Shown here in pieces: positions 2,142 to 49,327 of a stretch of 51,635 nt of DNA. Source of the DNA: a virus. Made by a program: the position numbers and the translations under genes. The stretch lies in IMG/VR virus record IMGVR_UViG_3300033388_001284, positions 1-51,635 of that record; one strand, written 5' to 3'. Below the pieces are notes generated by a model that was not told where the DNA came from, ran no database searches, and saw only the letters and a list, made by a program, of their open reading frames with translations. Each line of letters begins with the position of its first letter. Position 1 is the stretch's first letter.

Positions 2142-2532
2142 CCTTAACTCCTAACTTCTTCATGAGTTTTTCTTTTTTCTGTTGCACTGTTTCATTCCAA
2201 GTTACCTGGGGACAGGCTTTTATCTTCTTAATGTTAACTCCTCTCTCTCCAGCTTTCCTACATAACAATGAACCATTAGCAGTTGCTACTAAGCCATCAC
2301 ATTTACCGCACTTCTCGATAATTGATTTGTCAGTCATAAGTATTAATCCTCTCTTTAAGTTTCTTTGTTTTTCTTTTTGCCACCGTCTTTTTGCGCAAAC
2401 CTCACAATACCAACCTAACTTTCCGGTATTTTTATTGACTCTTGCAGGGCATGCGCAGTCGTGACAGGTCCCATTATCACGTCTTTTCTTATCATAACTT
2501 TTTCTTATAGCTTTCTTTTCTACTTCGTTCAC
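2134..2532 (-). CDS. Zinc-ribbon-like protein, unknown
   Basis: 132 aa with two Cys clusters: CHDCACP plus CEVC near residues 23-46 and CGKC plus a later Cys pair near residues 75-106. The N-terminus is very basic (KKAIRKSYDKKRRDNG). The arrangement suggests a nucleic-acid-binding zinc ribbon; the layout recalls HNH-type scaffolds, but no His-Asn-His core is visible, so no nuclease call is made. Overlaps its upstream neighbour by 4 bases. Confidence 0.7.
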   Translation of the reverse strand: MNEVEKKAIRKSYDKKRRDNGTCHDCACPARVNKNTGKLGWYCEVCAKRRWQKEKQRNLKRGLILMTDKSIIEKCGKCDGLVATANGSLLCRKAGERGVNIKKIKACPQVTWNETVQQKKEKLMKKLGVKDV

Positions 2533-2951
2533 TTATATAACCTTACCTTTACCTTTATATTATTCTCCGATAGGGTACAATAATAGTAATCTTCATTATC
2601 ATACACTTCTATAGGAATGTTTCTAAACAAAAGCTTTCTATCATCACTCCACAATAAAAATCTTGCATCATAGGGATTATCATCATTGATACAGATCCAG
2701 AAAAACATAACTTCATTCTTAAAATAGTATCCTGTGAATGATTCGTCTGCTGTAAATTCATTACATCTTTTAAATGAATAAACATTCGTCAATTGTTCAT
2801 CAATATATGGTTGGATCATTACAACCTTTGTTTTCTGTTCGTGCTTTGTCATTTGCACATTGTCAATTGTTACGATGTTACTTGCATTAGTGCTACCTGC
2901 AAACATGTTACTTGACATTAAAGACAAAAATACTATTATCTTTTGTATCAT
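2529..2951 (-). CDS. Exported protein with signal peptide, unknown
   Basis: 140 aa. Residues 1-23 form a signal peptide (MIQKIIVFLSLMSSNMFAGS) with a likely cut after an Ala-Gly stretch. The rest is a compact beta-rich domain with two Cys that could pair in the periplasm (FKRCNE, WICIND). GGAGGACTAAGAA precedes the ATG. A secreted early phage protein could modify the envelope or block superinfection; no family was recognised. Confidence 0.7.
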   Translation of the reverse strand: MIQKIIVFLSLMSSNMFAGSTNASNIVTIDNVQMTKHEQKTKVVMIQPYIDEQLTNVYSFKRCNEFTADESFTGYYFKNEVMFFWICINDDNPYDARFLLWSDDRKLLFRNIPIEVYDNEDYYYCTLSENNIKVKVRLYK

Positions 2952-2954
2952 TTC

Positions 2955-3035
2955 TTAGTCCTCCGATTTAATTGCTATTATCATTGCTAAAATAGTAAGT
3001 AGTATAGTTATTGTTCCTATTATATATCCTGCCAT
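2955..3035 (-). CDS. 26-residue single-helix membrane peptide
   Basis: MAGYIIGTITILLTILAMII plus a short IKSED tail. The start overlaps the upstream stop as TAATG, with AAGGGAGTG as ribosome site, and its last codons (TCG GAG GAC) carry the ribosome site of the next gene. Coupling on both sides makes it a real gene despite its size. Role unknown. Confidence 0.6.
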   Translation of the reverse strand: MAGYIIGTITILLTILAMIIAIKSED

Positions 3036-3247
3036 TAGTTACACTCCCTTAAATGTTTTCTTAGGTCTAGGTCTAGTAGTAATCTGCTATAATCCCTCTC
3101 CGATTGGTTGATCAGGTCGTTATTGTATTTATGTATAATACTTATTCTCTCCAGTTCAAGAACTGTAATATACTTACCATCAAAGTTGTACCCTTCCAGT
3201 TGCTGTCGAATGGGCAGTGCCAGTGTGTCATAGTTGATGTTTAGCAC
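3035..3247 (-). CDS. Small protein, unknown
   Basis: 70 aa, predicted mostly helical, with charged C-terminus (RLLLDLDLRKHLRECN). Overlaps the upstream gene by 7 bases and the downstream membrane peptide by one base. Not recognised. Confidence 0.7.
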   Translation of the reverse strand: MLNINYDTLALPIRQQLEGYNFDGKYITVLELERISIIHKYNNDLINQSERDYSRLLLDLDLRKHLRECN

Positions 3248-8067: not shown

Positions 8068-8098
8068 GTTATCCACCTTATTATTTTTATTTATAATT

Positions 8099-8349
8099 CT
8101 ATTGTTGGTTTATTTTAAAGTAATCTTGTTTATACCAATTACTATTGTCGCCGGATTCATCAAAATACTGTGCTAGATGAGTGTCTTTGTTATAGTATGG
8201 TTTGTTACCACAAATGTTTATATATTTCATTTCAGGACGATTCTCAGCGTTGTCTTTAAGTCTTTACATTCAAATACCAATTTGTTTATCTTACCTTCAG
8301 CCGTTCCCCAACCACCCATAAAACTATCTGTCATTGTTACATAATACAT
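8099..8349 (-). pseudogene. Conserved small phage protein (KLVFEC / MKYINI type), reading frame broken
   Basis: ATG 8349 opens MYYVTMTDSFMGGWGTAEGK then INKLVFECKDLK. The natural continuation DNAENRPEMKYINICGNKPY to the stop at 8099 is in the -1 frame. The switch falls in CTTAAAGAC (plus 8253-8261); one more A would restore a protein of 83 aa. I recall intact relatives in other phages with the same order of motifs. Either a homopolymer error, a decayed gene or -1 slippage. Confidence 0.65.
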
Positions 8350-8353
8350 ATTG

Positions 8354-8403
8354 TCCACCTTATTAGTTAATCTTTATTTAGTCGGTATCATATACCGCTT
8401 GTT
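8354..8403. repeat. 50-bp leader repeat, copy 1
   Basis: Identical to 8717-8766. On the minus strand it is the untranslated leader of the next gene: box ACAAGCGGTA, the inverted repeat CGGTAT-CAT-ATACCG, an A-rich stretch, then the ribosome site AAGGTGGA. The duplicate leader suggests shared control of the two genes. Confidence 0.9.
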
Positions 8404-8406
8404 TGT

Positions 8407-8712
8407 TTATAATAATTCTTCGCAACAATTACAACAATCGTTTTCATCTGCTATTTCTTCTTTAAATCCCTCATTACCACAATTAGAGCAAGTGTGAAAC
8501 ATTTCAAGACTGTTTCCGTTCATCATACAAACTTGATAGTCGGAGTTAATAAGGAACACATAACCACTCATTTTATTAAACATTATTGTTAAGCCATCGT
8601 CATAAAAGTCCTCAGGCAAACCTTGACTTACTTTAGTATCTAATATTGTTATCATTTCGTCGATCTCTCTTGCTCCGAACTCTGACATATCACTTGTTAC
8701 TGTATTTTCCAT
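8407..8712 (-). CDS. Conserved small phage protein with C-terminal zinc ribbon
   Basis: 101 aa from ATG 8712 (AAGGTGG upstream; GTG 8721 in frame). Middle part DDGLTIMFNKMSGYVFLINS, then MNGNSLEMFHTCSNCGNEGF and CCNCC: two Cys pairs fit a zinc ribbon. The NG..LE.F..C..CG.EGF pattern is one I recall among early genes of many phages with no known role. Transcribed from the promoter at 8777-8805. Confidence 0.7.
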   Translation of the reverse strand: MENTVTSDMSEFGAREIDEMITILDTKVSQGLPEDFYDDGLTIMFNKMSGYVFLINSDYQVCMMNGNSLEMFHTCSNCGNEGFKEEIADENDCCNCCEELL

Positions 8713-20174: not shown

Positions 20175-20465
20175 ATGAGAATCTTTAACAAAGGTAAAAG
20201 AAAATTTGAAGTAAAGGACGGCAAGGACACTGTAGTAATACAGCCTCAACGTTTCTCTACTGTTTCTGATGAACTAGGAAAAAGTCTTTTAAAAGACTAC
20301 TTCCGTGATCTTTCTGAGACAGAAGATGTTAATAAAGATGAAAATATTTCTCTTAAAAAAGAAATAGCAGAACTTAAAGCTCAATTAGCTAAAAAGGAAT
20401 CGGGAAAAAGTAATAAAAAGAAGCCCGTAGCTCCTAAAGAAGTAAAAGAGACAGAAAGTAACTAA
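20175..20465 (+). CDS. Small head-associated protein
   Basis: 96 aa: a short beta domain (RIFNKGKRKFEVKDGKDTVV) like those that bind capsid or neck proteins, then a coiled coil (ISLKKEIAELKAQLAKKE) and a basic tail with SGKSNKKKPVAP. AAAAAGGAAGTAAC before the ATG. Likely a minor virion or assembly protein by position. Confidence 0.6.
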   Translation: MRIFNKGKRKFEVKDGKDTVVIQPQRFSTVSDELGKSLLKDYFRDLSETEDVNKDENISLKKEIAELKAQLAKKESGKSNKKKPVAPKEVKETESN

Positions 20466-20484: not shown

Positions 20485-20715
20485 ATGGCAAAAGAAAAAG
20501 CAACAGGTCTAACTTCCCCTGTTACTGCTCCTATTAAAAAACCTTTGTCAAAACTCATACACAACCGGGGTAAAATCCCGGTTGTTATTAGATATATAAA
20601 AGGTTTACCAGAAGTATTGCAGGTCAACAGAAAAGTTAGATTAAAAACAGAGATAGCAGATAAGCTATTAACTAAATACAAAGATTTAAAAGAAGTCAAA
20701 AAAGGAGACAAGTAA
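20485..20715 (+). CDS. Small basic structural-region protein
   Basis: 76 aa, basic. Contains GKIPVVIRYIKGLPEVLQVN, a beta-hairpin-like segment akin to the N-terminal domain of 20175-20465, and a LLTKYKDLKEVKKGDK end. AAGGAAAGATT upstream. Probably a minor head or neck factor; not identified. Confidence 0.55.
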   Translation: MAKEKATGLTSPVTAPIKKPLSKLIHNRGKIPVVIRYIKGLPEVLQVNRKVRLKTEIADKLLTKYKDLKEVKKGDK

Positions 20716-21089
20716 TGTCTATTCAAAATACACAAGCAGCTATAGAGCTGGGAACATTGACAGCAGGTACAAGATGGTTAGCGTTATTTGAGACTACACC
20801 GAATGAAACCTCTGCCGGCACAGAAATATCAACAAGTGGTACTGGTTATGCAAGAGTACAGGTTGACGCTGGGGACTGGACAATAGTAGATAAAACAGCG
20901 ACTTTAAATACAGAGAAAGCTTTTCCTACAGCAGTATCGGCATGGCCTACAGTAGTTGGGTTTGCTTTGATGACAGCATCTTCAGCAGGTACCATACTTA
21001 GATACGAAGACTTGTTTGCAAGTAAAGCAATCTTACTAGATGACACTGCAAGGTTTGCATCAGGGGAACTAACACTAAACTTCTCATAA
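20715..21089 (+). CDS. Gp80-like virion (fibre) protein
   Basis: 124 aa. RWLALFETTPNETSAGTEIS, GYARVQVDAGDW, KAFPTAVSAWPTVVGFALM and ELTLNFS follow the pattern of the phage Gp80-like fibre family (WlalFt..P..aG.gtEvs..gYaR..v...W...........fp.at..W.tv..f...). Probably a head or tail decoration attached to the surface. Starts on the last base of the upstream stop with AAAGGAG. Confidence 0.65.
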   Translation: MSIQNTQAAIELGTLTAGTRWLALFETTPNETSAGTEISTSGTGYARVQVDAGDWTIVDKTATLNTEKAFPTAVSAWPTVVGFALMTASSAGTILRYEDLFASKAILLDDTARFASGELTLNFS

Positions 21090-21099
21090 GGATTAAAAT

Positions 21100-24000
21100 A
21101 TGGCTGAAATAATAAGGTATGTAGACACAGGGGCAACAGGTACCGGTGATGGTACCTCTTGGACAGATGCCTACACCTCTATGTCCGCTATGGAGGCCGC
21201 AGAACAACAGGATTTAGTAGCAGGTGGTAACACGTTCACATGTTATTGTAGAGCCAGCACTGGAGTAGCAGATACGACTCCAGTTATCTTCCTAGGTTGG
21301 ACAACAGGCGTAGCCAACGATATTAAAATCATAGGTGAGTCAACCTCCAAGTGGGACGCAAGTAAATATAGATTCGTATTCCCCTTCTCTGTTACAACCG
21401 GTATGTCATTAGAAGTACCTAACTTAACATTTGACTCTATACATGTAGAACACACTAAATCAGCGGCATCCGCTACTTATACCTATACTATAAGAGTTAG
21501 GAACCCCGGAATAACAATTAAGAACTGTATTCTCAAGGGAGTCAATGACGGAGCACCATCCCAATATTTAGGATGGACAGGTGTTCATATACAGTATTCA
21601 GATGGAATATGTTTATTTTACAACAATATACTCTATGACTTCATTGTAGGTGGCGCAGCAGCTCTAAAAGATAGATCGTCTGGTGTCTCGACTGTATACG
21701 CATATAACAACACTTTATATAATAATGACGTTTCACTTCAAGGTGACAACGGTAACATGGTTGTAAAGAACAGTATTATAGCAGCTACAGGGACAACTCT
21801 AGTAGAAGGAACGATAAGCTCGGCATCTGACTACAACTCATTTGATACAGCGGAGACCACAGGAGGAGCCAACGACAGAGCTAGTCAAACTTTCTCTTTC
21901 ACAGACGTACCAACAGGTGATTTTACACTATTACCAATCGATACAGGTGCTTTGGATGTAGGAGTAGATCTTTCAGCAGATCCCGGCCTCTCTATAGTAG
22001 ACGATATTATAGGAACCGCTAGACCACAAGGTTCTGGCTATGACATAGGGTCAATAGAAACTATTGGTTCAGTGACTTATGTTGATTTAAATAGTACAGA
22101 GACCACTACTGTAATAGAGACAGCGGATCTTACTGTGCAATCAGCAATAACAGACATAGTTAGATATGTAGATACAGGTGCTACAGGTACAGGTGATGGT
22201 ACAAGTTGGGTTAACGCTTATACAGCATTAGCAACGATGGAATCGTCAGAACAACAGAATCTAGTATCTACTAACAGTAGGTTCACATGTTATTGTAGAG
22301 CGAGTACTGGACTAGCAGACACTACTCCATTCGTATTTTTAGGTTGGACAACTAGTGTAACTAACACTATATCTCTAATAGGAGAAAAAACTTCATCGTG
22401 GAACACTGATAAATACAGGTTGGAGATACCCTATGATGTAAGTACAGCGATATCCTTAGAGGTGCCGTATCTTACATGGGATGCTATACATCTACAACAC
22501 ACTAAATCAGCGTTGTCTTCTACTTACGTGTATACACTACGTATAAGAAATCCTAATATACATGTTAAAAACAGTATTATTAAAGGTGTTAATGACGGAG
22601 CACCTGCTCAATATCTTGGATGGTCAGGTGTACATATTCAAATCGATTCTCTGTCAGCACAGTTTAGTAACAATATAATATATGGTTTTGATGTAGACGG
22701 AGCAGCAGCACTAAAAGATCGTAGTTCCATTGGTGCTACTGTTTATGCATATAACAACACTATTTATGGTAATGACATCGCTTTGCATTGTTACGATTCT
22801 ACTTTAGTGTTAAAGAATACACTGGTTGCAGGAAATAACCAGACTCTAGAAGACTCAATAAACCCTGCATCTGACTACAACGCATTCGATTCTGTAGAGA
22901 CCACTGGAGGAGCCAACGACAGAGCAAGCCAAACGTTCTCTTTTGTGGACGCACCAAGTGGTGACTTCTCTCTGTTACTTACAGATACAGGAGCTTTAGA
23001 TGTTGGCGCTGACTTATCAGCAGACCCTGGTCTAAATATAAGTAACGATATTATAGGAACTTCAAGACCACAAGGCCCTGGTTATGATATAGGGTCTATA
23101 GAGACTCCTGAAGACACCGGTTTTGTGGAGTTACAGTCTACAGAATTAGCTATTATATATGAACATGCCGACTTAACACCCGGCCCATATAATGTAACAG
23201 CTACAATACCGGTTTTAGAACCTTTTCCAGTGTCCGTACTTAATCCGTCACAGACGTATTACGTTGATCAAGCGTATCCCGGAGCATCGGACAGCAACGA
23301 TGGTTCAGAGACTAACCCTTGGTTAACTATAGACCACGCAGCCGACGCTGTTGTTGGTGGTGGTAAGATTATAGTAAAGGCAGGATTCTATGACGAAAGG
23401 GTAGATTCTACAGTTGGTGGTGTTGATGGGAACTGGAAAGTTTTTGAGGCGCAGGGATCAGTAACATGTAGAGGTTTTGTAATACGCTCAGCCTCATATG
23501 TGGCAGTAAATGGATTTATTATAATTGATCAGCTTGATCCTATTGGGACATCCTACGGAAGTGGTGTGTGGGTGCAAGGTGATTATGTATATGTATTAAA
23601 TAATACGATATCAGGTTTCGCAAGATCAACAGGTGTAACATCTTCCGCATATTCTGTGAATTTAAATGTTCAAGTAGAAAACAATAGAATATTCGATTGT
23701 ACAGGCGGTGTGTGGGTTGATGGTAGCTCATGGTTGGTTATAAATAACAATATATCAGCATTACGTTACATAGACGGCGGGGATTGTGACTACTTTAGGT
23801 ATTTCGGTGACGATATAATTTTTCGTGACAACTACATGCATGACACTTTACAGTCCTCAGTTGGCCCGTCACATGTTGATTTCTTTCAAACTTTTTGGAA
23901 CAATCAAGAGTCACACAGGATACTAATAGAAAACAATTTAGGCCACGGCCCTTATGTTAATCAGGCGGTACTCATAGAAGGGCAAGGTGACATAGTTACC

Positions 24001-25233
24001 GATATAACAATTAGAGGGAACGCTCTAGTAGATATGACCTCTTGGGGTATTTTGGTCGGGGCTGCAAAGAGAATAACAGCGTATAACAATACAATTAGAG
24101 GAGCAGACACAGCACCCTTTGGTATTGCTTATAGACAAGGAACCTTACAAGGTGAAGTCGATAGGGCAACCGGTGTTGTTAGAGATAATATTATAAACAA
24201 CTGGACATCAGACAACTGGTTTCAAGGGAACTGTATTGTAGAGTACAGTTATAATATAGTAGGAAACGCTGAGTACCTTCAAGACCCAACTGATATTCTT
24301 GCTCCAGATCCAAGATTTGTTAATACCGCAGACATAGTAGGGCCAGATATGCTCCCGTTTACATCAGATGATGGTCTTCGTTTGTTGGAAGACTCACCAG
24401 CCATAGATAATGGCACTGATGGAGAAACAATAGGCGCATATCTATATGCCAGTACATTCACTGATTTAAAGGTGGATGAATTTGTATCAGTGAATGAGGA
24501 GGCAACACTCCAAAACTTGAAGCCTTTGGTGTCTACTGAAACTGTAACAGTCCAAGAGACCGCAGATTTACTTGTATCCAAGTGGTTAGTATCAAATGAA
24601 ACTGTAACAGTCCAAGAGACCGCAGATTTACTTGTAACTAAATGGCTGACAGTAACTGAAGAGACAGTAGTAATAGAAGTAGGTATCTTATCAGTTCCTG
24701 ACCTTATACTTCTAAGATCGCATGAGTATACGGGAGTATCTGATGAAGGCATAGTAAGCGCTATAAGAGGACTAAGTTCTGAGGAGCGAGTAAGACCGTA
24801 TGAGTACGGTAACCTTAGTTCTGAAGTAGTTGATCCTTTTAAAGACTACTTCGATAGAGGACAGTTTGATTATGGTGATGAACCGCCACAAGTCAGAGAT
24901 AAGGATATCGAGAATGCGAGAGCCGAAGCAGACTGCGTGTTTAACGAAGGAATATATCCAGATCAAGAATGTTCGGATAAAGCATACCTTTACCTAACAG
25001 CACACTTCCTACAGTCTGATATACAAGCCGGAGCGAGTTTTGGGCAGCCGGACTTTCTTCAGACAGCAAGAACCGCTGACGGGATTACAGAACACTTGTT
25101 CATCCCCGACTGGATGAAACAGAGTGATTTCGTTTTATATGTAACTACTTACTATGGTAAGAAGTTTTTAACAATATCAAAACCTTGGTTAGATGGTGCC
25201 GTATTTGTAGTAGCTGGAGGAACAACGTTCTAA
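21100..25233 (+). CDS. Giant beta-helix virion protein fused to a DUF4054 head-tail adaptor
   Basis: 1377 aa. Residues 1-350 and 352-700 are tandem copies of one beta-helix unit (both contain RYVDTGATGTGDGTSW, FTCYCRASTG, KGVNDGAP and RASQTFSF). Residues 719-1115 form a third, pectate-lyase/DUF1565-like parallel beta-helix (YYVDQAYPGASDSNDGSETN...NPW start, many NN turns). A linker has two exact ETVTVQETADLLV blocks. Residues about 1262-1377 (QECSDKAYLYLTAHFLQSDI, TYYGKKFLTISKP) match DUF4054, normally a free adaptor of about 120-150 aa in this slot. No internal ribosome site in frame was found, so the adaptor seems to carry a decoration or fibre of three helices out from the neck. Confidence 0.75.
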   Translation: MAEIIRYVDTGATGTGDGTSWTDAYTSMSAMEAAEQQDLVAGGNTFTCYCRASTGVADTTPVIFLGWTTGVANDIKIIGESTSKWDASKYRFVFPFSVTTGMSLEVPNLTFDSIHVEHTKSAASATYTYTIRVRNPGITIKNCILKGVNDGAPSQYLGWTGVHIQYSDGICLFYNNILYDFIVGGAAALKDRSSGVSTVYAYNNTLYNNDVSLQGDNGNMVVKNSIIAATGTTLVEGTISSASDYNSFDTAETTGGANDRASQTFSFTDVPTGDFTLLPIDTGALDVGVDLSADPGLSIVDDIIGTARPQGSGYDIGSIETIGSVTYVDLNSTETTTVIETADLTVQSAITDIVRYVDTGATGTGDGTSWVNAYTALATMESSEQQNLVSTNSRFTCYCRASTGLADTTPFVFLGWTTSVTNTISLIGEKTSSWNTDKYRLEIPYDVSTAISLEVPYLTWDAIHLQHTKSALSSTYVYTLRIRNPNIHVKNSIIKGVNDGAPAQYLGWSGVHIQIDSLSAQFSNNIIYGFDVDGAAALKDRSSIGATVYAYNNTIYGNDIALHCYDSTLVLKNTLVAGNNQTLEDSINPASDYNAFDSVETTGGANDRASQTFSFVDAPSGDFSLLLTDTGALDVGADLSADPGLNISNDIIGTSRPQGPGYDIGSIETPEDTGFVELQSTELAIIYEHADLTPGPYNVTATIPVLEPFPVSVLNPSQTYYVDQAYPGASDSNDGSETNPWLTIDHAADAVVGGGKIIVKAGFYDERVDSTVGGVDGNWKVFEAQGSVTCRGFVIRSASYVAVNGFIIIDQLDPIGTSYGSGVWVQGDYVYVLNNTISGFARSTGVTSSAYSVNLNVQVENNRIFDCTGGVWVDGSSWLVINNNISALRYIDGGDCDYFRYFGDDIIFRDNYMHDTLQSSVGPSHVDFFQTFWNNQESHRILIENNLGHGPYVNQAVLIEGQGDIVTDITIRGNALVDMTSWGILVGAAKRITAYNNTIRGADTAPFGIAYRQGTLQGEVDRATGVVRDNIINNWTSDNWFQGNCIVEYSYNIVGNAEYLQDPTDILAPDPRFVNTADIVGPDMLPFTSDDGLRLLEDSPAIDNGTDGETIGAYLYASTFTDLKVDEFVSVNEEATLQNLKPLVSTETVTVQETADLLVSKWLVSNETVTVQETADLLVTKWLTVTEETVVIEVGILSVPDLILLRSHEYTGVSDEGIVSAIRGLSSEERVRPYEYGNLSSEVVDPFKDYFDRGQFDYGDEPPQVRDKDIENARAEADCVFNEGIYPDQECSDKAYLYLTAHFLQSDIQAGASFGQPDFLQTARTADGITEHLFIPDWMKQSDFVLYVTTYYGKKFLTISKPWLDGAVFVVAGGTTF
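24537..24636. repeat. 40-bp direct repeat with 60-bp period in the linker
   Basis: The segment TGAAACTGTAACAGTCCAAG and the next 20 bases at 24537-24576 recur exactly at 24597-24636. In protein this gives two identical 13-residue blocks in the linker before DUF4054. Perfect identity suggests a young duplication. Confidence 0.85.
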
Positions 25234-25772
25234 TGAGTACTTTTGAATCAAACTTAAAAGGGCTTCTGAACTTTCAGAAGAACATGAAACAGATGGACTC
25301 AAGTTATTACACAGATGTAGGTATATTTAAACCAGAGGTTTATGAGGACTCAGGAAAGACCGTACCGGAGGTTGGGTTAGAACACGAGTTAGGTGTTATA
25401 TCAAAAAACCTACCGAGAAGGTCTTTCCTCGAAGACCCTATTAGAGATAATATGAATAAGATTATAAAGGGTCTATCAACGACAATCGGCAAGAAATTAG
25501 TGGAATCTAACATGGATGAAATATTTCAGGCCATTGGAGAAGGTGCGGAAAAAGTCGTTCAGCGAGGCTTTCGTACTAAGGGTTACGGAAAATGGTCTCC
25601 ATTAAGTTCCGTAACAGTAGCTAATAAGGCTGTTAAAGCCATTAAGATTAGAGACTATAAGAGGATAACCAAGGCGGTTACTCGCTCACAAGTAAGAAAA
25701 GCAAGGGACAGCATCTTGATAGATACTGAGTTACTAAAGAACTCTATAGAGTGGAGGGTAGGTAAAAGCTAA
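25233..25772 (+). CDS. HK97 gp10-like neck / tail completion protein
   Basis: 179 aa from ATG 25233, which overlaps the stop of the fusion gene. VGIFKPEVYEDSGKTVPEVG, HELG...PRRSFLEDPIRDN, GYGKWSPLSSVTVANK and the final LIDTELLKNSIEWRV match the HK97 gp10 / P2 gpS-like pattern (sfl...., W.pLs..t...K, LidTG.LrnSI). Joins the finished tail to the head. Confidence 0.75.
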   Translation: MSTFESNLKGLLNFQKNMKQMDSSYYTDVGIFKPEVYEDSGKTVPEVGLEHELGVISKNLPRRSFLEDPIRDNMNKIIKGLSTTIGKKLVESNMDEIFQAIGEGAEKVVQRGFRTKGYGKWSPLSSVTVANKAVKAIKIRDYKRITKAVTRSQVRKARDSILIDTELLKNSIEWRVGKS

Positions 25773-36467: not shown

Positions 36468-37589
36468 ATGGCGAAGCCAAGTATAACACAAGAAAAGCTC
36501 AAGTGGGCTGATTCTAGTATAACAGATCCGGGAAGTGGTGAAGCAAATAAGGTTACCACCCCTACTACAAAAGAAACAAACGGTTGGATATACCAAGAAG
36601 AGCCCGGCTTTAATTATTTAAATTATTGGATGAACCTTGCTTATCAGTATGTGGCCTGGATTGTTGCAGAACCTTTGGAAGGAAACTATAAATTTAGTGG
36701 AACTAAAACGTTCGAAGAAGAGCTATATATAGAAACATGGTCAGAGGTTCAGCAAGGGTATCAGTCATTTAGCAAACTTGTAGATGACATTGGTATAATA
36801 AGTACTTATTATACCAATCCCGGTGGAACTGCTAGTCTCATAGACTTATTTCAATTAAGTGCTGGAACAGTACACTATTATAAACATACTTTCTTGAATG
36901 AAGTGGAAGCAGCAACAGGTATAAAAATAACAGGTGGTGACCTTGTTATAGAGAAGTCCACTACTCCTACGATACTACTTAATCACACTGGTGCTGGTAG
37001 AGAGGTATATATAGAGAACACAGGAACAACGTCCAGATGGTTAGCTGGAGGCTCTACTCCAAACCCTGCTTTTGAAGTAACTAATGCCACGGCTGATATA
37101 ACTATACACAATGAAGCAACCTTTAATGACATTGTTACCTTAAAAGAAAACGTGTTTGCAGAAAAGGACTTAAACGCAGACAACGATGTTATAGCACAAA
37201 ACGATGTTTATGCTTATGGAAACGTGACTGCGAGGTATAACCTTATTGCACAAGGGAGTGCGAATATACAAAACGAAGTAACATGTGGTAATGTGGATGC
37301 TCGTAATGATGTACAAGCTGGAAAAGATCTTTTGTCTGTACGTGATGTTAAGGCGGTTGGTGGGTTTGTTATAGGGCTAAATGGAGTAGTGACAAAACTT
37401 GCTGAGTTTACCGGAGCAGGTGCTCCGACAGATGCCCAGTGTGTTACAGAACTAGAATCAGCCGGTGCTATTTCTGTAGCCGAAGGCTTTGTTGGTCTAA
37501 TGGAGAATGACAGTACTAAAGTTGTATATATGGCTGTTAAGAACACAGTTGGTGACTGGTACCAGACCGCTTTAACAAAAACACTTTAA
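36468..37589 (+). CDS. Tail fibre / receptor-binding protein
   Basis: 373 aa. N-terminal baseplate anchor (KPSITQEKLKWADSSITDPG, GWIYQEEPGFNYLNYWMNLA). Middle: short beta repeats DVIAQNDVYAYGNVTARYNL...VTCGNVDARNDVQAGKDLLS with period near 6-7 residues, as in trimeric fibres. C-terminal GFVGLMENDSTKVVYMAVKN fold is a probable tip. Binds the host surface. No separate fibre chaperone seen. Confidence 0.8.
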   Translation: MAKPSITQEKLKWADSSITDPGSGEANKVTTPTTKETNGWIYQEEPGFNYLNYWMNLAYQYVAWIVAEPLEGNYKFSGTKTFEEELYIETWSEVQQGYQSFSKLVDDIGIISTYYTNPGGTASLIDLFQLSAGTVHYYKHTFLNEVEAATGIKITGGDLVIEKSTTPTILLNHTGAGREVYIENTGTTSRWLAGGSTPNPAFEVTNATADITIHNEATFNDIVTLKENVFAEKDLNADNDVIAQNDVYAYGNVTARYNLIAQGSANIQNEVTCGNVDARNDVQAGKDLLSVRDVKAVGGFVIGLNGVVTKLAEFTGAGAPTDAQCVTELESAGAISVAEGFVGLMENDSTKVVYMAVKNTVGDWYQTALTKTL

Positions 37590-42098: not shown

Positions 42099-42290
42099 TT
42101 AAGCAAGACTTTCCTCTATATCACTAGCAAAACATCTTATCTCTTCAATCTTACCATTTCTGTCTTTATACTCAACATCAAATACGTTACATTCTTTCTC
42201 TCGACATAACCTCATAATCACCCCATGCACTTTGTGCATTTTAATAAATACTTTGTTGTCTATATCATACTCAAACTCTACTTCTCTCAT
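42099..42290 (-). CDS. Small protein between polymerase and microprotein genes, insertion candidate
   Basis: 63 aa: REVEFEYDIDNKVFIKMHKV, HGVIMRLCREKECNVFDVEY, a small beta protein that resembles phage 'gp' beta-barrels of unknown role. ATGA overlap with the polymerase stop. Flanked on both sides by the same 23-bp sequence, so it looks inserted between the polymerase and its old neighbour. Confidence 0.65.
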   Translation of the reverse strand: MREVEFEYDIDNKVFIKMHKVHGVIMRLCREKECNVFDVEYKDRNGKIEEIRCFASDIEESLA

Positions 42291-44086
42291 CCTAAAAACT
42301 CCTCCGCTCTAGTTTCTGAAACATCCCCCCAATTGTCGCCGACTTCTATATCAGCTCTAATTGGCACTCGTAACTTGACGCATGATTCCATGCAATGTGC
42401 CAGCTCTTTAGTTGCCTCCTTACCTTCTTTTGTTTGTGGTATTGATACATCTAACTCATCGTGAACTGTTAAATGTGGTTTAAGCACATTAAACACTCCA
42501 GCCTTATATGCATCAAGCATTCCTTTCTTCATAACATCAGCAGCAGTGCCTTGTATCAACTTGTTAAGCATCTTATAGTAACCACCGTTATTTCTTATCC
42601 AGTCGTCAACTCTTCCACGTCTTCCTAATAGTGTTACTATATAACCACGTTGCCGGGCATCGTCACCTACAACGTTCATTGTGTGACGTACATAAGGCAT
42701 TTCACTGTGGTACAGATTAACTATTTCCATTCCATGTTCTAGGTCCCAACCATTACTTTCAGCACATTTCTTGGCTCCCATTCCGTACATAGACCCAAAG
42801 TTAACTGCTTTAGCATATTTACGTTCTAGTCCAGTCCACTGCATAACTGTCTTATGGTAGTCAGTCGTTGGATCAGTACAATAGGCATGTCGCAATTGAT
42901 CAGCCCTGTCCCCTTGCGCATAATGGGCTAGTATCCGATACTCAATCTGTGAGTAATCAAGCTTACCCCACAGATGCCCTTCTTCAGGTATATAAGCTGC
43001 TCTACATTCCTTACCAAATCTATCTGCTTTAGAGGGCTGATTCTGCAGGTTGGGATTTGTACCAGAAAATCTTCCAGTTATTGTACCCTTACCATCTTTC
43101 TTTAATGGATGAAACATGCCATGTATTCTTCCATCTATACAAGTGTCAGGATCAAGTAGTATATTCTCAAATACAGAACTAACTACTCTCTTCATCCGCT
43201 TGACTTCTAATATCTCTTTAGCTATTGGGTGAGCTGTTCTCTCAAGAACAACATTGCTTATTGATGGATTCTTTTTATCCGTTGTAGGATAAGGTAATCC
43301 TAAAGAATCAAATATTACCGCCATCTGTTTAGATGAGTTATAATTGAATTCTCCGTATTCGTCAAATAACTTTACTTCCTTTTTACGAATTTCTTTATTG
43401 AACAACGATCTATTATCGGCCACTACATCTTGGTTAACCCTAACACCTTGTTTTCTCATCTGTAACAATAAAGGAGTTAAAGCGATTTCCATATGATAAA
43501 CTTCAAGTAGATTTTGTTCCTTCATACATGCCCATTGTTTCCTGAATATCTCAATAGGTAGTACTGTATCCTCAAGAGCGTATTCTCTAACCATCTCTAA
43601 AGGCATCTTAGATAAATGCTTTCTTGCATCACCTTTCCAACCTTTAGACTCAGCGTACTCAGTTATTCTGGACTTCTTCTTACCTTTATTCAGGTACTTA
43701 AGTGCTAAGTTGTCAAGGGAATAAGATCTTGAATACTCATCTAACAAAGACTCTGCATACTGGACATCGTGCAATTCACCATTGACATTTATCCCGTAAC
43801 CATTCTGGAGCCAGTCGATATCGTAGAGTAGGTTAGCTCCCAATTTCTTATTGTTACCTGCCAATTGTTCTTTAAGGTAGGCAATGTTCTTCTGTTTCCG
43901 TACAGGGTTTGTCTCTTCATGACCTATGTCGTAATATTCTGAGAAACCATCTGTAGTTGTTATTGCGCAACCCAAGATATGTCCGTCTTTTCTGTAGACA
44001 CCGGGCCCTTTGTCAAGTAACAATGGGTCATATGTCTCTATGTCCAGTGATATTACTGGTTGGTTTTTAAGATCTGGATATTTCAT
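42287..44086 (-). CDS. Family A DNA polymerase with 3'-5' exonuclease
   Basis: 599 aa. Exonuclease: VISLDIETYD (residues 10-19), LGANLLYDIDWLQ, YALEDTVLPIEI. Polymerase: motif A GKLDYSQIEYRILAHYAQGD (near 380), motif B RKYAKAVNFGSMYGMG (near 425), motif C LTVHDELDVSI (near 563). No 5'-3' nuclease domain, as in T7-like polymerases. The replicative enzyme of the phage; may ride on the clamp-like protein at 7048-8067. Confidence 0.95.
   Translation of the reverse strand: MKYPDLKNQPVISLDIETYDPLLLDKGPGVYRKDGHILGCAITTTDGFSEYYDIGHEETNPVRKQKNIAYLKEQLAGNNKKLGANLLYDIDWLQNGYGINVNGELHDVQYAESLLDEYSRSYSLDNLALKYLNKGKKKSRITEYAESKGWKGDARKHLSKMPLEMVREYALEDTVLPIEIFRKQWACMKEQNLLEVYHMEIALTPLLLQMRKQGVRVNQDVVADNRSLFNKEIRKKEVKLFDEYGEFNYNSSKQMAVIFDSLGLPYPTTDKKNPSISNVVLERTAHPIAKEILEVKRMKRVVSSVFENILLDPDTCIDGRIHGMFHPLKKDGKGTITGRFSGTNPNLQNQPSKADRFGKECRAAYIPEEGHLWGKLDYSQIEYRILAHYAQGDRADQLRHAYCTDPTTDYHKTVMQWTGLERKYAKAVNFGSMYGMGAKKCAESNGWDLEHGMEIVNLYHSEMPYVRHTMNVVGDDARQRGYIVTLLGRRGRVDDWIRNNGGYYKMLNKLIQGTAADVMKKGMLDAYKAGVFNVLKPHLTVHDELDVSIPQTKEGKEATKELAHCMESCVKLRVPIRADIEVGDNWGDVSETRAEEFLG
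42293..42315. repeat. 23-bp direct repeat, copy 2 (end of polymerase)
   Basis: Coding copy: last codons of the polymerase, including GGAGGAG that serves the overlapping next start. See 42066-42088. Confidence 0.9.
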
Positions 44087-44316
44087 TGGAACACTTCACT
44101 TATGAAGACAAAGGCCATGAAAAGCATCGGTGCTCCTAACAACATTGTGTAAGACATTATCAATGTAACCCTCAGCGTTAAACTTTTAATCTTATATATC
44201 AAACAAATCGGAATAAACATTGTAAGTAGAACTGCTGCCACTGCAAAAGATAATTGTATTATACCTAAAAAGTATACCGTTATTAGTTCTTTTATATACA
44301 TAATTATTTCTGTCAT
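44083..44316 (-). CDS. Small membrane protein
   Basis: 77 aa from ATG 44316 (AGGTGAG three bases upstream). Two helices (FLGIIQLSFAVAAVLLTMFI and MSYTMLLGAPMLFMAFVFI). Lies between helicase and polymerase. Possibly anchors replication to the membrane, by position only. Confidence 0.6.
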   Translation of the reverse strand: MTEIIMYIKELITVYFLGIIQLSFAVAAVLLTMFIPICLIYKIKSLTLRVTLIMSYTMLLGAPMLFMAFVFISEVFQ

Positions 44317-44320
44317 ATAC

Positions 44321-45706
44321 TCACCTATATATCTTATATTCATATTTTGTATCACTATGTACTAAGTACAAGTTTTTCTTTGCTCTGGTAACACCCACGT
44401 AGAACACCCGGTGTTCACTGTCTGGGTTCTTGTTTAAGTTTTCGTGTACCTGTTTTGTTATATTAAGAAGTAGTACAACATTATCTGCTTCCGAGCCCTT
44501 GGTAGCATGTATTGTATTAACCTCTATGGTATAATCGTTAAGTACTCTACCTTTAGTAACAAAGTTTCTTATATGTGTTTTCTTAGCTGCTTCCCACTTA
44601 AACGACATCCACCAAGGTTGCTTGAAACTGAAGTGCTCCTCAAGAACTCTCCTCAACTTTAGATCGTCTTTATCACTGACTATTAAAGTCTTCTGTGCTT
44701 GCTCGTATAATTGAACCATATTCAGGTCTTCTTGTGTTATAGACGGGGAACCTTTATACCTATAAGGATATCCACCGTCCTCAAGCATCTCTTTAACACC
44801 GTTAAGGAACGTGTTATTCCTAGATAGAAACATCCAACTCTCACAATTGTCAAGTGGCAATCCTTTAAGGTTATTCATTGTGTAAACAGCACCATCTTTA
44901 CCGGTTGACTCATAATGTTTCTCTACTCTTTTAGATATCAATTTTGTGATGTTCTTTGACAAGTTAAGAACCGCTCTTGGAAGCCTATAACTCTGTCTAA
45001 GGATCTCTATATCACCATCCAATTCTAAGAAGTAGTTTACATCGGCACCTGACCATTGGTAAATGGCTTGGTCATCATCCCCGGCGACATATATTGTATC
45101 AACATGTTTAAAGGCAGCCCATATCATTCTCCACTGTAACGAAGATAGATCCTGTGCCTCATCGACAATTGCCACCTTGACAGGTACCGCTTCACCATTG
45201 TCAATGAACTGTTCTATTAGATCAGTATAGTCTCTTAATTTCATGTGGTCTTTAAATCGTTTGTAGTTGTGCTTAACAAAGTTATATTTGCTTATATCAA
45301 CGCTGTCTAGATGTGTTCTGGTTGCCGATGGGTTGTTCCTGTGTAGGTCTTGTAGGAACAGATATTTATCATCGTTATGTTTAAGATCTTCTGTGTAGTA
45401 ACCGGTGAAATACATCCCTAGTTTCTTAGAAAACTCTCTATAATGAGATTTCTGTACCATCTCATTCTGTTTGGCTCCCAAAGAGAAGAAAGCCAAACTG
45501 TGTAACGTTCTAAAGTATGGGTAGTCCTTATCGCTACCACCAAACTTCTCTTTGGCTCTCTTCTTCCCCTGATTAACGCCTTCCCTAGTGTAACTAACAA
45601 AGGCTATTTCTTCCTTCTTATATGTTTTTAAAAGCTCCTCCAGTATACTGAGGAGCTTGGTTGTTTTCCCAGTGCCTGGGGGCCCAAAAATTAGGTTAGT
45701 CTGCAT
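44321..45706 (-). CDS. UvrD/PcrA-like SF1 helicase
   Basis: 461 aa from ATG 45706 (GGGAG 7 bases before). Motif I FGPPGTGKTTK, Ia FVSYTREGV, II VDEAQDLS, III AGDDDQAIYQWSGAD, IV LRQSYRLP, V IHATKGSEAD, VI FYVGVTRAKKNLYLV. A compact 3'-5' DNA helicase for replication restart or recombination. Overlaps 45696-45902. Confidence 0.9.
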   Translation of the reverse strand: MQTNLIFGPPGTGKTTKLLSILEELLKTYKKEEIAFVSYTREGVNQGKKRAKEKFGGSDKDYPYFRTLHSLAFFSLGAKQNEMVQKSHYREFSKKLGMYFTGYYTEDLKHNDDKYLFLQDLHRNNPSATRTHLDSVDISKYNFVKHNYKRFKDHMKLRDYTDLIEQFIDNGEAVPVKVAIVDEAQDLSSLQWRMIWAAFKHVDTIYVAGDDDQAIYQWSGADVNYFLELDGDIEILRQSYRLPRAVLNLSKNITKLISKRVEKHYESTGKDGAVYTMNNLKGLPLDNCESWMFLSRNNTFLNGVKEMLEDGGYPYRYKGSPSITQEDLNMVQLYEQAQKTLIVSDKDDLKLRRVLEEHFSFKQPWWMSFKWEAAKKTHIRNFVTKGRVLNDYTIEVNTIHATKGSEADNVVLLLNITKQVHENLNKNPDSEHRVFYVGVTRAKKNLYLVHSDTKYEYKIYR

Positions 45707-45902
45707 ACCTGAACTCCCATTTAGCCTTAGCAATACACTCACTATACAGCGCACATGGTGGTACATAAGGGTTGCTTTCTACTCTATCATGCAAACAATT
45801 ATCACAACACTTTAATTTCTCTATGAAGTCTAAGACCGCCTTATCTTTATCTGAATCGTTAAATAGTACTACTTTATCACCTATCAAAATACCTTGCTTC
45901 AT
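45696..45902 (-). CDS. Cys-cluster microprotein
   Basis: 68 aa: VLFNDSDKDKAVLDFIEKLK, then CCDNCLHDRVES and CALYSEC. Helix, CxxC, Cx5C order like the other members. Between primase and helicase. GAGAGGATT precedes the ATG. Confidence 0.6.
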   Translation of the reverse strand: MKQGILIGDKVVLFNDSDKDKAVLDFIEKLKCCDNCLHDRVESNPYVPPCALYSECIAKAKWEFRYAD

Positions 45903-45911
45903 AATCCTCTC

Positions 45912-47468
45912 CTAATATGGTTTCTCATCATAATCTTTACTAAAATCTACGTCAAACTCATCAATTTTAGTCTCATCTATAAACTTACTTAGTGCCTCAA
46001 CAGGTAACTGCCAAGCTCTTAATTGTCTATTCTTCTTATTTATATAGTAACACTTTGACTTGCCACCTAGATCTAAGATCCTCATTCTTACTTCAGCATC
46101 TGAGTAAGCTCTAAATTGTTTGACCTGACGTAGAAAGGCATATAGGTTCTTAGCTTTAAATATGTAGGCACCTAAGTCTTTGTCATGGTACACCTTGTCA
46201 AGCAACAAGTCTTCTTTGGCGATTGCCATTGACTTACCTGTCATAAATTCTGTTAAGTGCTCCATGAAGATAGCTCCTGTGGACATATCCTCCTCAATGG
46301 CTATTGTTATTACTTTTATGTTAAGTAATGCACTGTTAACAATCTTACACCAATTGTTCTCTTTCAGTCTACCGGGTAATTTATGTAGAGTACGGAAACA
46401 AAGTTCTCTGAACTTTGCTTGGTTTATTATGTCTGATTCTTTCTCAAATCTTAAAGGCTTACCGTCTACTACCCACTCGTATGTTGGTGGATCTGTCATA
46501 TGTTGATAGAAATCTTCATAGGTCAGTTCACTTACTTCATCACCCCCTATGCCATACTGTCTATTCTTACATGTTATCTTATTACAGTAACCCACAATAG
46601 GATCTTGTGAACATCTGTATGTATAATCTTTCTTTTCGTGTGATTTTATAACTGAGTTATAAACCTCGCTACTTGGTAACTGCTTATCTCCAAGTTGTCT
46701 GTTTGCTTCGTCAATGTGCGTTTCGTATTGGTCACCATACTTTGCTTTAAAGTATACTGCTAGAGAGAACAAGTAATTATTTCTACTTGTAGTATCACCT
46801 TTTAAGTATATATGTTGTAGACAAGGTGGTGCATCGTGTAATTCTACTGTCTCTAATGTCCCTTTGGCAGTTGTCATGGTGGCCATTCTGCTTTTTATTA
46901 TCTGTAAAGCCTCTTCCAGTGTTGCCGGAGTACGATCTGCTTTTACTAACACAGCTTTAGCTTTATCTTTGTTGTAGTAAGGAAGGTTTATCCAATTACC
47001 AATACCACCTGATTTCAAGTTGTTCTGTTTAGGAAATACTTCAGTTGTCAGAGACAGTCCAAGTAACACACAATATTCTCTAAGTACTTCAATAAGTGTT
47101 TTAGCCTTTACTGGTTCTTCTAGGAACATGTACAAGTGCCAACCACCGCTCTTTGACCTAAAAGGGAACAGCGGCAGGTTGTGCTGATAGATGAGGTCTA
47201 ATAGATAGTCAAAAGAACTATTATACACATCAACATCTATTACTCCGAACTTACAAGTTGAGTTAGGTGTTATTGGTGATATACCTAAACCTCTCTTACC
47301 ATTTAAGTGATCCTCGTATAAGTGGTCTAGTACCATCTCATTTTTAGTGTACGTTTTACCGTTTAGTTCCTTCTTACCATCTACCACTTCTCCATATTCA
47401 TGTACTCCGTACCCAGTGGTATTACCTGAGAAAAGTTCTATAAAAGTTTGTGATGTTAGTACATTCAT
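45912..47468 (-). CDS. Archaeo-eukaryotic-type primase (AEP)
   Basis: 518 aa. N-terminal catalytic domain: GVIDVDVY (metal-binding Asp pair, near residue 73) and SKSGGWHLYMFLEEPV (sGxH, near 105), then a third acid nearby. Zinc-like part DPIVGYCNKITCKNRQYG near residue 290. C-terminal region with DLGGKSKCYYINKKN. These are hallmarks of phage AEP primases. No DnaB-like helicase partner is seen; UvrD and SNF2 helicases flank it. Confidence 0.75.
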   Translation of the reverse strand: MNVLTSQTFIELFSGNTTGYGVHEYGEVVDGKKELNGKTYTKNEMVLDHLYEDHLNGKRGLGISPITPNSTCKFGVIDVDVYNSSFDYLLDLIYQHNLPLFPFRSKSGGWHLYMFLEEPVKAKTLIEVLREYCVLLGLSLTTEVFPKQNNLKSGGIGNWINLPYYNKDKAKAVLVKADRTPATLEEALQIIKSRMATMTTAKGTLETVELHDAPPCLQHIYLKGDTTSRNNYLFSLAVYFKAKYGDQYETHIDEANRQLGDKQLPSSEVYNSVIKSHEKKDYTYRCSQDPIVGYCNKITCKNRQYGIGGDEVSELTYEDFYQHMTDPPTYEWVVDGKPLRFEKESDIINQAKFRELCFRTLHKLPGRLKENNWCKIVNSALLNIKVITIAIEEDMSTGAIFMEHLTEFMTGKSMAIAKEDLLLDKVYHDKDLGAYIFKAKNLYAFLRQVKQFRAYSDAEVRMRILDLGGKSKCYYINKKNRQLRAWQLPVEALSKFIDETKIDEFDVDFSKDYDEKPY

Positions 47469-47491
47469 TTGTGTAGCCTTTAGTTAAGATA

Positions 47492-47511
47492 GGCCCTGAA
47501 TTAACAGGGCC
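47492..47511 (-). other. GC-rich hairpin upstream of the primase gene
   Basis: GGCCCTG and CAGGGCC (47492-47498, 47505-47511) with a 6-base AT loop. On the transcribed (leftward) strand no T-run follows, so it is not a classic terminator; it may pause polymerase, be an RNase site, or insulate the primase ribosome site. Confidence 0.65.
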
Positions 47512-47520
47512 CTTGTTTAT

Positions 47521-48267
47521 TTAATATGGTAAATCGTTGTCGTTTGATACTGGAGTTGATGCAGGTGGTAACTGTTTGGTGTTACTTACCTCTGGCTCAG
47601 GTAATGCCTTTTGTGCTAATGCTTCTACGTTAGCTACAGCATCTTTGATATATTTAACGTACTCATCTTCAGTTATAAGACGAACTCTCTCAACATTTGC
47701 CGCAGAGGATGATCCGATATTATGCCACATGTTACCATCTTTATTATTTAAAACTGATCCTAGTTTCCAGACAGTGGCAAAGAAAGGTGCTTTGTTACCA
47801 TTATCTAATCTTGTACATGCTATCAAAGTGTTCCAAGATTTAGCATATTTAATGGAAGCGCTCTTTAAAGATAGTATTTTAATACCTGAGTCCATATCAT
47901 CCGCTACATATACATAATACTCGATTATCTCTGACAACTCATTGCCATTAGGTAATACCCATTTAGCATATACATCTTTATTAACCCCTGCTGGTTCAGT
48001 GTCATGTACTGTTACAAAGCCTGCTCTATTAGGTTTCCACTCTATGAACTTTCTTTTGAAGTATACTGGTATGATATTAACTTCCTTGCCATATACTTTG
48101 TTAGTTATGGAGTCCATAAACATACCTTGTTTAGCACCCTTTACATAACCCTTGTCATCCTCATTACACTGTGGTGAAAGTTTCTGTAATATTTTTAGGT
48201 AAGGAATGTTTATATCCCCCATGCCCATGTTTACTTTGTCATCTGCTCCGTTTAAAAAATCACTCAT
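47521..48267 (-). CDS. Probable single-stranded DNA-binding protein
   Basis: 248 aa. INIPYLKILQKLSPQCNEDD, GKEVNIIPVYFKRKFIEWKP and a beta-rich core with many basic and aromatic residues. The C-terminus ends VSNDNDLPY, close to the acidic DDIPF-type tip by which SSB proteins hold partners. Between primase and a helicase-side gene. I recall similar proteins in phage replication blocks. No clear OB-fold motif; assigned by tail and context. Confidence 0.55.
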   Translation of the reverse strand: MSDFLNGADDKVNMGMGDINIPYLKILQKLSPQCNEDDKGYVKGAKQGMFMDSITNKVYGKEVNIIPVYFKRKFIEWKPNRAGFVTVHDTEPAGVNKDVYAKWVLPNGNELSEIIEYYVYVADDMDSGIKILSLKSASIKYAKSWNTLIACTRLDNGNKAPFFATVWKLGSVLNNKDGNMWHNIGSSSAANVERVRLITEDEYVKYIKDAVANVEALAQKALPEPEVSNTKQLPPASTPVSNDNDLPY

Positions 48268-48290
48268 TTTACTGCTCCTGTTTTGTTTTG

Positions 48291-48842
48291 TTATTTTATT
48301 TTAGTTTTCTTATATATAAAAAGACCACACTCTTTAGGCACGTCTTCTATATTAACTCTTTGTATAGTATTTTTCTTAAGACCTAACAGGTCAGTGTAAT
48401 ATGCTTTCAATGTTTGTGGGTGGACTGTCTCCTCTTCTTTGAAGGGAACCGACTCATCTATAAGATAGTTTTTTATTGTATCCTCTGGACAATTTATTGT
48501 CAAGGTATCTTTAATAATATCTGCCCCATTATTATTTCTTAAGAAGTCTAAAGCTATCTTTCTCTTAGCCGGATCGGTCTTTGGTAAGGACACTTTTACA
48601 TCTTCTGTTATCTCAATCTTTGCACCAGTTCCAAGTGTAACTCCGCTCAGCCCCTTTAGTTGTAGGAACTCAGGTATCATTTCACCGGACAGTTTGAGCT
48701 CTTGCATCTTAAGTTTTTTTAAGTGCTCCTCACTCTCTTTTATATGTACTCTTAGCCCTTCCAAATCTTGACACATGATTGACAAATGTGAAAGGTCACT
48801 TGCTACTGGCTCATTGTCCAGTTGTTCTAAGAAATTACTCAT
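48291..48842 (-). CDS. Replication-block protein, unknown
   Basis: 183 aa from ATG 48842 (GGAGGAGACAGCCG upstream). Coiled-coil N-terminus (CQDLEGLRVHIKESEEHLKK), then TLGTGAKIEITEDVKVSLPK and KRKIALDFLRNNNGADIIKD. The latter resembles the C-terminal half of phage 'siphovirus Gp157-like' replication accessory proteins, but this is not firm. Confidence 0.6.
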   Translation of the reverse strand: MSNFLEQLDNEPVASDLSHLSIMCQDLEGLRVHIKESEEHLKKLKMQELKLSGEMIPEFLQLKGLSGVTLGTGAKIEITEDVKVSLPKTDPAKRKIALDFLRNNNGADIIKDTLTINCPEDTIKNYLIDESVPFKEEETVHPQTLKAYYTDLLGLKKNTIQRVNIEDVPKECGLFIYKKTKIK

Positions 48843-49008
48843 CGGCTGTCTCCTCCAATAAAAATTCCAGTGATTCACATATATCGTCCCACTTGCACTC
48901 GTTACAGGGTGTCTTATCCTTGTAGCACAAAGAGGACTTAGCTTTATGCTCTGCTATTAACTTCTCGTCTAACTTCATTGTAACCACGTCTCTTAGTCTA
49001 AGCTTCAT
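48835..49008 (-). CDS. Cys-cluster microprotein (C-x6-C-xx-C-x5-C)
   Basis: 57 aa: MKLRLRDVVTMKLDEKLIAE, then CYKDKTPCNECKWDDIC and LEFLLEETADE. Same Cys spacing as 49138-49311. Last codons GAG GAG ACA GCC GAT are the next ribosome site and start. Starts inside the end of its upstream neighbour. Confidence 0.6.
   Translation of the reverse strand: MKLRLRDVVTMKLDEKLIAEHKAKSSLCYKDKTPCNECKWDDICESLEFLLEETADE
48839..48855. repeat. 17-bp coupling repeat, copy 1
   Basis: Ribosome site GAGGAGACAGCC plus start (minus strand), identical to 49005-49021. The copies bound the microprotein gene 48835-49008. Confidence 0.85.
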
Positions 49009-49138
49009 CGGCTGTCTCCTCTACAGAATCATCTCTGCGTGCTTGTTCATCACACGTTATTCGGAACTTACAATCACTACAATCTATACCCCAACAATCA
49101 AAATCCTGCCACCGTTCGAAATCTGTCTTTTCTTCCAT
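48998..49138 (-). CDS. Cys-cluster microprotein (C-x4-C-xx-C-x5-C)
   Basis: 46 aa: EEKTDFERWQDFDCWGIDCS then DCKFRITC and VEETADEA. Same Cys motif and same VEETADE end as its downstream neighbour. ATG shares its A with the TGA of the gene before. Confidence 0.6.
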   Translation of the reverse strand: MEEKTDFERWQDFDCWGIDCSDCKFRITCDEQARRDDSVEETADEA

Positions 49139-49311
49139 CACACTTCCTCCGCTAAATATTCCTCTAGGTATTCACAACTAACTAGCCACCTACACTCCAC
49201 ACAAAAAGGATCACCAACTGAACACTTTATACGATCGTCTTTAAACTGTTTTAATAACTCAGTATTCTTAACCTTTAGCTCAAGTATAGTAGCTAACTTT
49301 ATATGTTCCAT
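49138..49311 (-). CDS. Cys-cluster microprotein (C-x6-C-xx-C-x5-C)
   Basis: 57 aa: helix ILELKVKNTELLKQFKDDRI, then KCSVGDPFCVECRWLVSC, and YLAEEV. Its last codons equal those of the SNF2 helicase (AEEV, 22-bp repeat at 49133-49154 and 49306-49327), because both serve as ribosome site for the following start. Confidence 0.6.
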   Translation of the reverse strand: MEHIKLATILELKVKNTELLKQFKDDRIKCSVGDPFCVECRWLVSCEYLEEYLAEEV

Positions 49312-49327
49312 CACACTTCCTCCGCTA
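49306..49327. repeat. 22-bp coupling repeat (second copy at 49133-49154)
   Basis: Exact repeat of the end of the helicase gene at the end of the microprotein gene. Distance between copies 173 bases, exactly enclosing one microprotein gene. Confidence 0.9.

Follow-up and report, generated by a model that had tools for sequence, protein, structure and literature searches.

Head-tail adaptors of the phages XM1 (gp1) and E217 (gp27) are dodecamers whose C-terminal tails are inserted between the portal subunits (PMC10457771, PMC10329688). The adaptors of phage Milano (gp14) and phage 812 (gp96) carry in addition an external domain of the beta-sandwich type that touches the capsid (PMC10491603, PMC12886913). 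At the neck of the contractile phage XM1, collar spikes are formed by six trimers of gp40, an 839-residue protein with a tailspike (Det7-type) part. An Ig-like domain at the N-terminus fixes these spikes mainly to the stopper and the terminator, and they also make a small contact with the adaptor (PMC10457771). The subject here is a gene of an uncultured contractile phage, the virus record IMGVR_UViG_3300033388_001284 in IMG/VR, a complete record of 51.6 kb (51,635 nucleotides, referred to as the window), in which a head-tail adaptor is joined in one reading frame to three beta-helix domains placed before it. The favoured reading, with a probability of roughly two in three, is that the product forms a 12-fold ring at the neck and that beta-helix arms, attached to it covalently, work in the manner of the XM1 collar spikes but are built into the adaptor.

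The fused gene occupies positions 21100..25233 (+) and is a single open frame of 1377 codons without an internal stop. The encoded protein has 1377 residues, a mass of 149 kDa and a pI of 4.2. An AAGGA ribosome-binding site, read from the sequence, lies at 21088..21092 (+), 7 nucleotides upstream of the ATG. The remaining five frames each contain between 49 and 131 stops over the same interval, so the frame of the fused gene is not there by chance.

The end of the chain, residues 1238-1377 (24811..25233 with the stop codon, +), is a head-tail adaptor of the phrog_302/DUF4054 type, both by sequence profile and by its helical fold. It aligns at 30% identity with residues 3-143 of gp51 of Bdellovibrio phage phi1422, a stand-alone protein of 145 residues that occupies the same slot between the capsid and neck genes. 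The phrog_302 profile matches the whole fused protein with E=3.6e-4. Pfam DUF4054 (PF13262) scores 18.8 bits on the window protein, under its cut-off of 23.9; the nearest relatives, from the viral loci L004 (55% identical) and L007 (51%), exceed it with 30.6 and 32.0 bits, respectively. A profile made from 24 relatives, with the window protein left out, matches residues 1239-1377 with E=7e-32. It matched no other frame, and no second adaptor was detected in the window.

Structure prediction of this end, proposed as a check in the initial annotation, yielded a model that matches the solved 12-fold adaptors of E217 and XM1. The AlphaFold model was built on 25 sequences, and its core has a predicted local distance difference test score (pLDDT) above 90. 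Aligned with VIA-align, it gives a Z-score of 12.0 against E217 gp27 (root-mean-square deviation 7.0, 130 residues aligned) and of 10.9 against XM1 gp1 (deviation 4.0, 116 aligned), with further adaptors from HFTV1 (Z 8.2), Pam3 (Z 8.0) and T1 (Z 8.0) behind them. The top 12 structural matches are all chains from the neck or portal complex of phages or archaeal viruses. Foldseek searches of the model against PDB and BFVD gave no match at E <= 0.001; the top match was E217 gp27 (E=0.014, probability 1.00), and the assignment of the fold is based on this match together with the VIA-align Z-scores. The matches to solved adaptors begin at model residues 53-58, which correspond to protein residues 1236-1241, and run to the end, which places the fusion point at the residue where an ordinary adaptor begins. 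The initial annotation had named the adaptor correctly but confined it to the last 115 residues, whereas the domain covers about 140.

The likeness to XM1 gp1, E217 gp27 and the Pam3 adaptor lies in the fold of these last 140 residues, in the neck gene slot and in the free C-terminal tail. The fused frame stops right after the adaptor, and since the addition is N-terminal the tail that docks on the portal stays free. The three known proteins have 118-155 residues with nothing before the adaptor fold, whereas 1237 residues precede it here. Homology to them supports the ring of 12 that had been suggested for this protein, and twelve copies would be expected.

The slot agrees with this assignment. 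The gene order is that of a contractile-phage structural operon, with terminase, portal, protease-like, cement-like and capsid (19159) genes followed by genes of 96 and 76 amino acids, a Gp80-like gene and the fused gene. The operon continues with neck/tail-completion, a phrog_939 head protein (stopper-like by gene position), terminator and sheath. The adaptor is thus found between the capsid and the neck/terminator genes, as is expected for such a protein.

The residues before the adaptor fall into three beta-helix domains, a stalk and a hinge, all on the plus strand. The first domain (21100..22065, residues 1-322) has a choice-of-anchor Q-like cap, and the second (22147..23112, residues 350-671) is its tandem copy, 64% identical. 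The ratio of nonsynonymous to synonymous substitutions (dN/dS) between the two is approximately 0.19, with dS at 1.46 and near saturation, which suggests that the copies diverged under purifying selection. The third domain (23254..24438, residues 719-1113) is distinct and DUF1565/NosD-like. It passes the Pfam cut-offs for Beta_helix (39.3 vs 25.9 bits) and DUF1565 (26.4 vs 20.3), whereas domain 1 reaches 20.4 bits with Beta_helix (cut-off 25.9) and domain 2 is not listed. The choice-of-anchor Q domain is known to cap beta-helix regions in bacterial surface proteins. Over the full length of the protein its NCBIfam model gives 40.8 bits against a cut-off of 25, with a single stretch closing each tandem copy (17.7 and 20.0 bits singly).

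A STETVTVQETADL-type motif follows each helix, and after the third it is repeated into a stalk of 20-residue units (24451..24693, residues 1118-1198). Because the linker motif that follows helices 1 and 2 recurs in it, stalk and helices are parts of one protein. Two of its units form a 60-bp tandem DNA repeat in exact register (24526-24645, 88% identical). The 39-residue hinge (24694..24810, residues 1199-1237) is a low-confidence part of the model and is assigned by position. The description of the first 1115 residues as two tandem beta-helices and one distinct one therefore holds for residues 1-1113; the stalk and the hinge had been overlooked.

A single chain has to be weighed against the making of two products from the one gene. 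In this alternative the long chain is made, but most adaptor subunits are supplied by cutting it at the hinge or by the use of a weak internal start; the ring would then be plain or mixed, and the beta-helices would act elsewhere or on a few subunits. The window does encode a candidate cleaver of the phage head maturation protease kind (phrog_2229, E=5.6e-11), and twelve arms of 133 kDa would be a heavy load on one ring. The neck of XM1, however, bears a comparable mass of beta-helix spikes. A scan of start codons found no in-frame ATG, GTG or TTG from residue 1145 to 1279, which leaves the stretch between residues 1144 and 1280 free of them, and none in residues 1110-1300 with a ribosome site at normal spacing, in agreement with the earlier observation that no such internal start precedes the adaptor. 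The nearest upstream candidates (GTG-1125, GTG-1131, TTG-1140, TTG-1143 and GTG-1144) all lack a normally spaced site. TTG-1140 has a GAGG 14 nucleotides upstream, which speaks for this alternative; its product would be stalk plus adaptor and not an adaptor of 13-15 kDa. The stop codon of the fused gene overlaps the ATG of the gene for the neck/tail completion protein (phrog_222; 25233..25772, +) in the sequence TAATG, as with one coupled frame. Two products are accordingly judged unlikely, and a full-length chain is predicted for the virion.

Relatives were sought with short patterns in IMG/VR, with tblastn in 50,697 phage records, and in approximately 800 bacterial genomes. PF13262 was run on 398 genomes from one bacterial phylum and on 396 from a second, and the first 398 were rescanned with alignment A4. 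The rarity of the fusion holds for the databases surveyed here. IMG/VR, the bacterial genomes and phi1422 supplied 24 distinct adaptor relatives, all of them separate genes of 139-305 residues, and in none of the 24 are arms fused to the adaptor. The bacterial genomes gave adaptor matches in 16 cases, in open frames of 128-325 amino acids. These figures bear out the earlier statement that the adaptor normally stands alone in this slot. Long DUF4054 fusions were also considered as a candidate class in the bacterial genomes and were rejected, the frames of the 16 matching genomes being at most 325 amino acids.

The closest adaptors by sequence (phi1422 gp51, L004 and L005-L007) have the same surrounding gene order; unlike the window protein they are stand-alone proteins of 139-145 residues without an adjoining beta-helix gene. 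In the loci of relatives that extend far enough upstream, there are small genes only between capsid and adaptor, and no beta-helix gene. The two closest relatives have one gene of 164-171 amino acids there (L004 6135-6629, L007 2253-2768); this gene, common to both and with no assigned function, was not seen in the window. The 96-residue gene of the window has counterparts in the relatives. By comparison of gene content, the extra piece in the window consists of the beta-helices together with two genes, the Gp80-like one and that of 76 residues. Since the adaptors of the relatives stand alone, the arms were apparently added in the lineage of the window phage.

The beta-helix part found no convincing relative in the 50,697 phage records, and no close relatives of the third helix or the stalk were found in IMG/VR. 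On the viral fragment L047, a stand-alone relative of helices 1 and 2 (27% identity) is found a few genes ahead of tail genes. On the same fragment, ETITVDKWQGSRPDIVFQ-type repeats occur in a gene (2216-3091) shortly 3' of the stand-alone beta-helix gene. In the literature searched, no published account of such an adaptor fusion was found.

The Gp80-like fibre protein (124 amino acids; 20715..21089, +; PF23140, E=5.8e-19) is encoded directly 5' of the fused gene. Pfam takes the name Gp80 from a fibre protein of podophage GP4. The adaptors of that phage are gp81 and gp82 (PMC11945409); a fibre gene next to adaptor genes thus recurs there. In the window, the Gp80-like protein is probably a partner of the fused protein or a piece of the same inserted cassette.

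Several points weigh against the proposed armed ring. The fused chain is known from the genes of one metagenomic contig, and no close relative of the whole fusion was found in IMG/VR. The single-sequence structure model of domain 2 is unusable (pLDDT 32), and for domains 1 and 2 the fold is consequently assigned from sequence profiles that score below the Pfam cut-off. No ligand or active site was identified in the arms.

One contig without a second example would also fit an artefact or a dead end, in which separate beta-helix and adaptor genes were joined by a mistake in assembly or sequencing, or in a rare defective genome. Misassembly could have happened at the two 60-bp repeats of the stalk. 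For a false join, nevertheless, the stop of one gene, the intergenic region, and the ribosome site and start codon of the other would all have to be lost with the frame kept. The remaining two forward frames across the junction are filled with stops, the stalk shares the linker motif of helices 1 and 2, and the gene order on either side fits one phage type. Such an origin is regarded as quite improbable. The weakest alternative is a real fusion in which the arms have a role in stability or touch the capsid instead of meeting the host or glycans. It can draw on the capsid-contacting external domains of the Milano (beta-sandwich) and phage 812 adaptors and on the failure to recognise a ligand family in the arms. 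It is very improbable all the same: the beta-helices are of a surface-protein type, exceed 1100 residues and sit on a flexible repeat stalk, which does not resemble a compact contact domain, and a Gp80-like fibre gene adjoins.

The closest functional parallel to the covalent arms is offered by gp40 of XM1, a related contractile phage. The added mass is similar, at 18 x 839 residues in XM1 and 12 x 1237 in the window phage, if twelve copies are present. The attachment is not the same. As a trimeric protein of its own, gp40 is bound non-covalently, while the arms of the window are part of the adaptor chain and are attached by their C-terminal side. A gp40-type protein is a separate spike with an N-terminal neck-binding domain and a C-terminal tailspike; in the window protein the arms come first and an adaptor closes the chain. 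By analogy the arms may work like a collar spike, but outside the gp40 class. The Milano gp14 and phage 812 gp96 proteins are alike in being adaptors with an outward domain; theirs is one small domain inserted within the chain and in contact with the capsid, unlike the N-terminal arms. None of the four adaptor classes in PMC10491603 has an N-terminal multi-domain fusion. The whiskers of T4 fibritin and the phi29 gp12 appendages, collar counterparts in PMC10491603, are likewise fibrous attachments of the neck or collar, likened here by description and not by sequence, but they are separate proteins and are not fused to an adaptor.

The initial annotation had pictured side fibres or whiskers at the neck, which is soundly reasoned. 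Its idea that these might cut polysaccharides has no backing beyond a match of 53 residues at the start of domain 3 to the xylosidase 3vst (E=0.0064); in the profile searches no glycosidase or lyase family attained its cut-off. Binding of glycans is suggested by the domain type. A candidate baseplate tail fibre is encoded at 36468-37589 (phrog_4465, E=0.0023), so receptor binding need not depend mainly on the arms.

In the proposed scheme, twelve adaptor ends would bind under the portal, with their free C-terminal tails between the portal subunits, and the adaptor ring would be the base for the rest of the neck. The 1237 N-terminal residues, comprising the three helices, the stalk and the hinge, would leave the ring at the N-terminus of the adaptor. 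Up to twelve flexible, acidic arms of approximately 133 kDa each would then project outward from the neck. As with the collar spikes of XM1, they could hold the particle near glycans of the host surface or the environment before the baseplate engages. The arrangement probably originated with the entry of a cassette, made up of a Gp80-like fibre gene and a beta-helix gene, between the capsid and adaptor genes. An in-frame fusion of the beta-helix gene with the adaptor would have followed.

Extra domains also occur in related adaptors. In 12 of the 24 relatives (L012, L013, L014, L020, L022, L024, L028, L029, L032, L038, L041 and L043) an insert of approximately 45-165 residues lies in the loop after the first helix of the adaptor. 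The inserts of four relatives resemble carbohydrate-binding module 5/12 below the cut-off, the best being that of L038 (25.7 vs 26.2 bits). The insert region of L043 matches proteins of Nitratiruptor phages (46-52% over 46 residues). The adaptor of L025 (6983-7747), like those of L026 and L027, has a C-terminal Ig-like domain (He_PIG, E=6.8e-14 in L025). In L025 this domain is placed beyond the tail expected to dock on the portal. Another neck protein with a surface-type module is encoded in L004, the closest relative (8075-8680), two genes 3' of the adaptor; the module, at the end of the protein, is a Listeria-Bacteroides repeat (29.2 bits with Flg_new, cut-off 27). The inserts, the Ig-like domain of L025 and the external domains of the Milano and phage 812 adaptors indicate that the adaptor fold tolerates additions. 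It is tentatively suggested, with some doubt, that the adaptor family could act as a chassis for outward modules placed in front, in the loop or behind; the ring of the window phage would then be a twelve-armed covalent glycan-binding collar, with its reach tuned by duplication of the 60-bp repeat.

Some further features of the window may be mentioned. The small genes 3' of the capsid gene, at 20175-20465 (96 amino acids) and 20485-20715 (76 amino acids), are possibly diverged copies; their likeness, from a single comparison, is suggestive only (16.9 bits, E=0.025). An AEP-TOTE-type primase is encoded at 45912-47468 (-). Near it, in the region 42287-50969 (-), are genes for a UvrD-like helicase, a family A polymerase, an SNF2-like helicase and a Pam3 gp34-like protein.

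The fibres and collar spikes of phage necks have so far been known as separate proteins. If the armed ring proposed here is correct, the adaptor tolerates approximately 133 kDa at its N-terminus while still joining head to tail. Whether a ring is assembled from twelve full-length chains or is mixed is directly testable. A covalent fusion to the ring would be, among the papers and databases searched, a new way of setting the number and the place of neck appendages.

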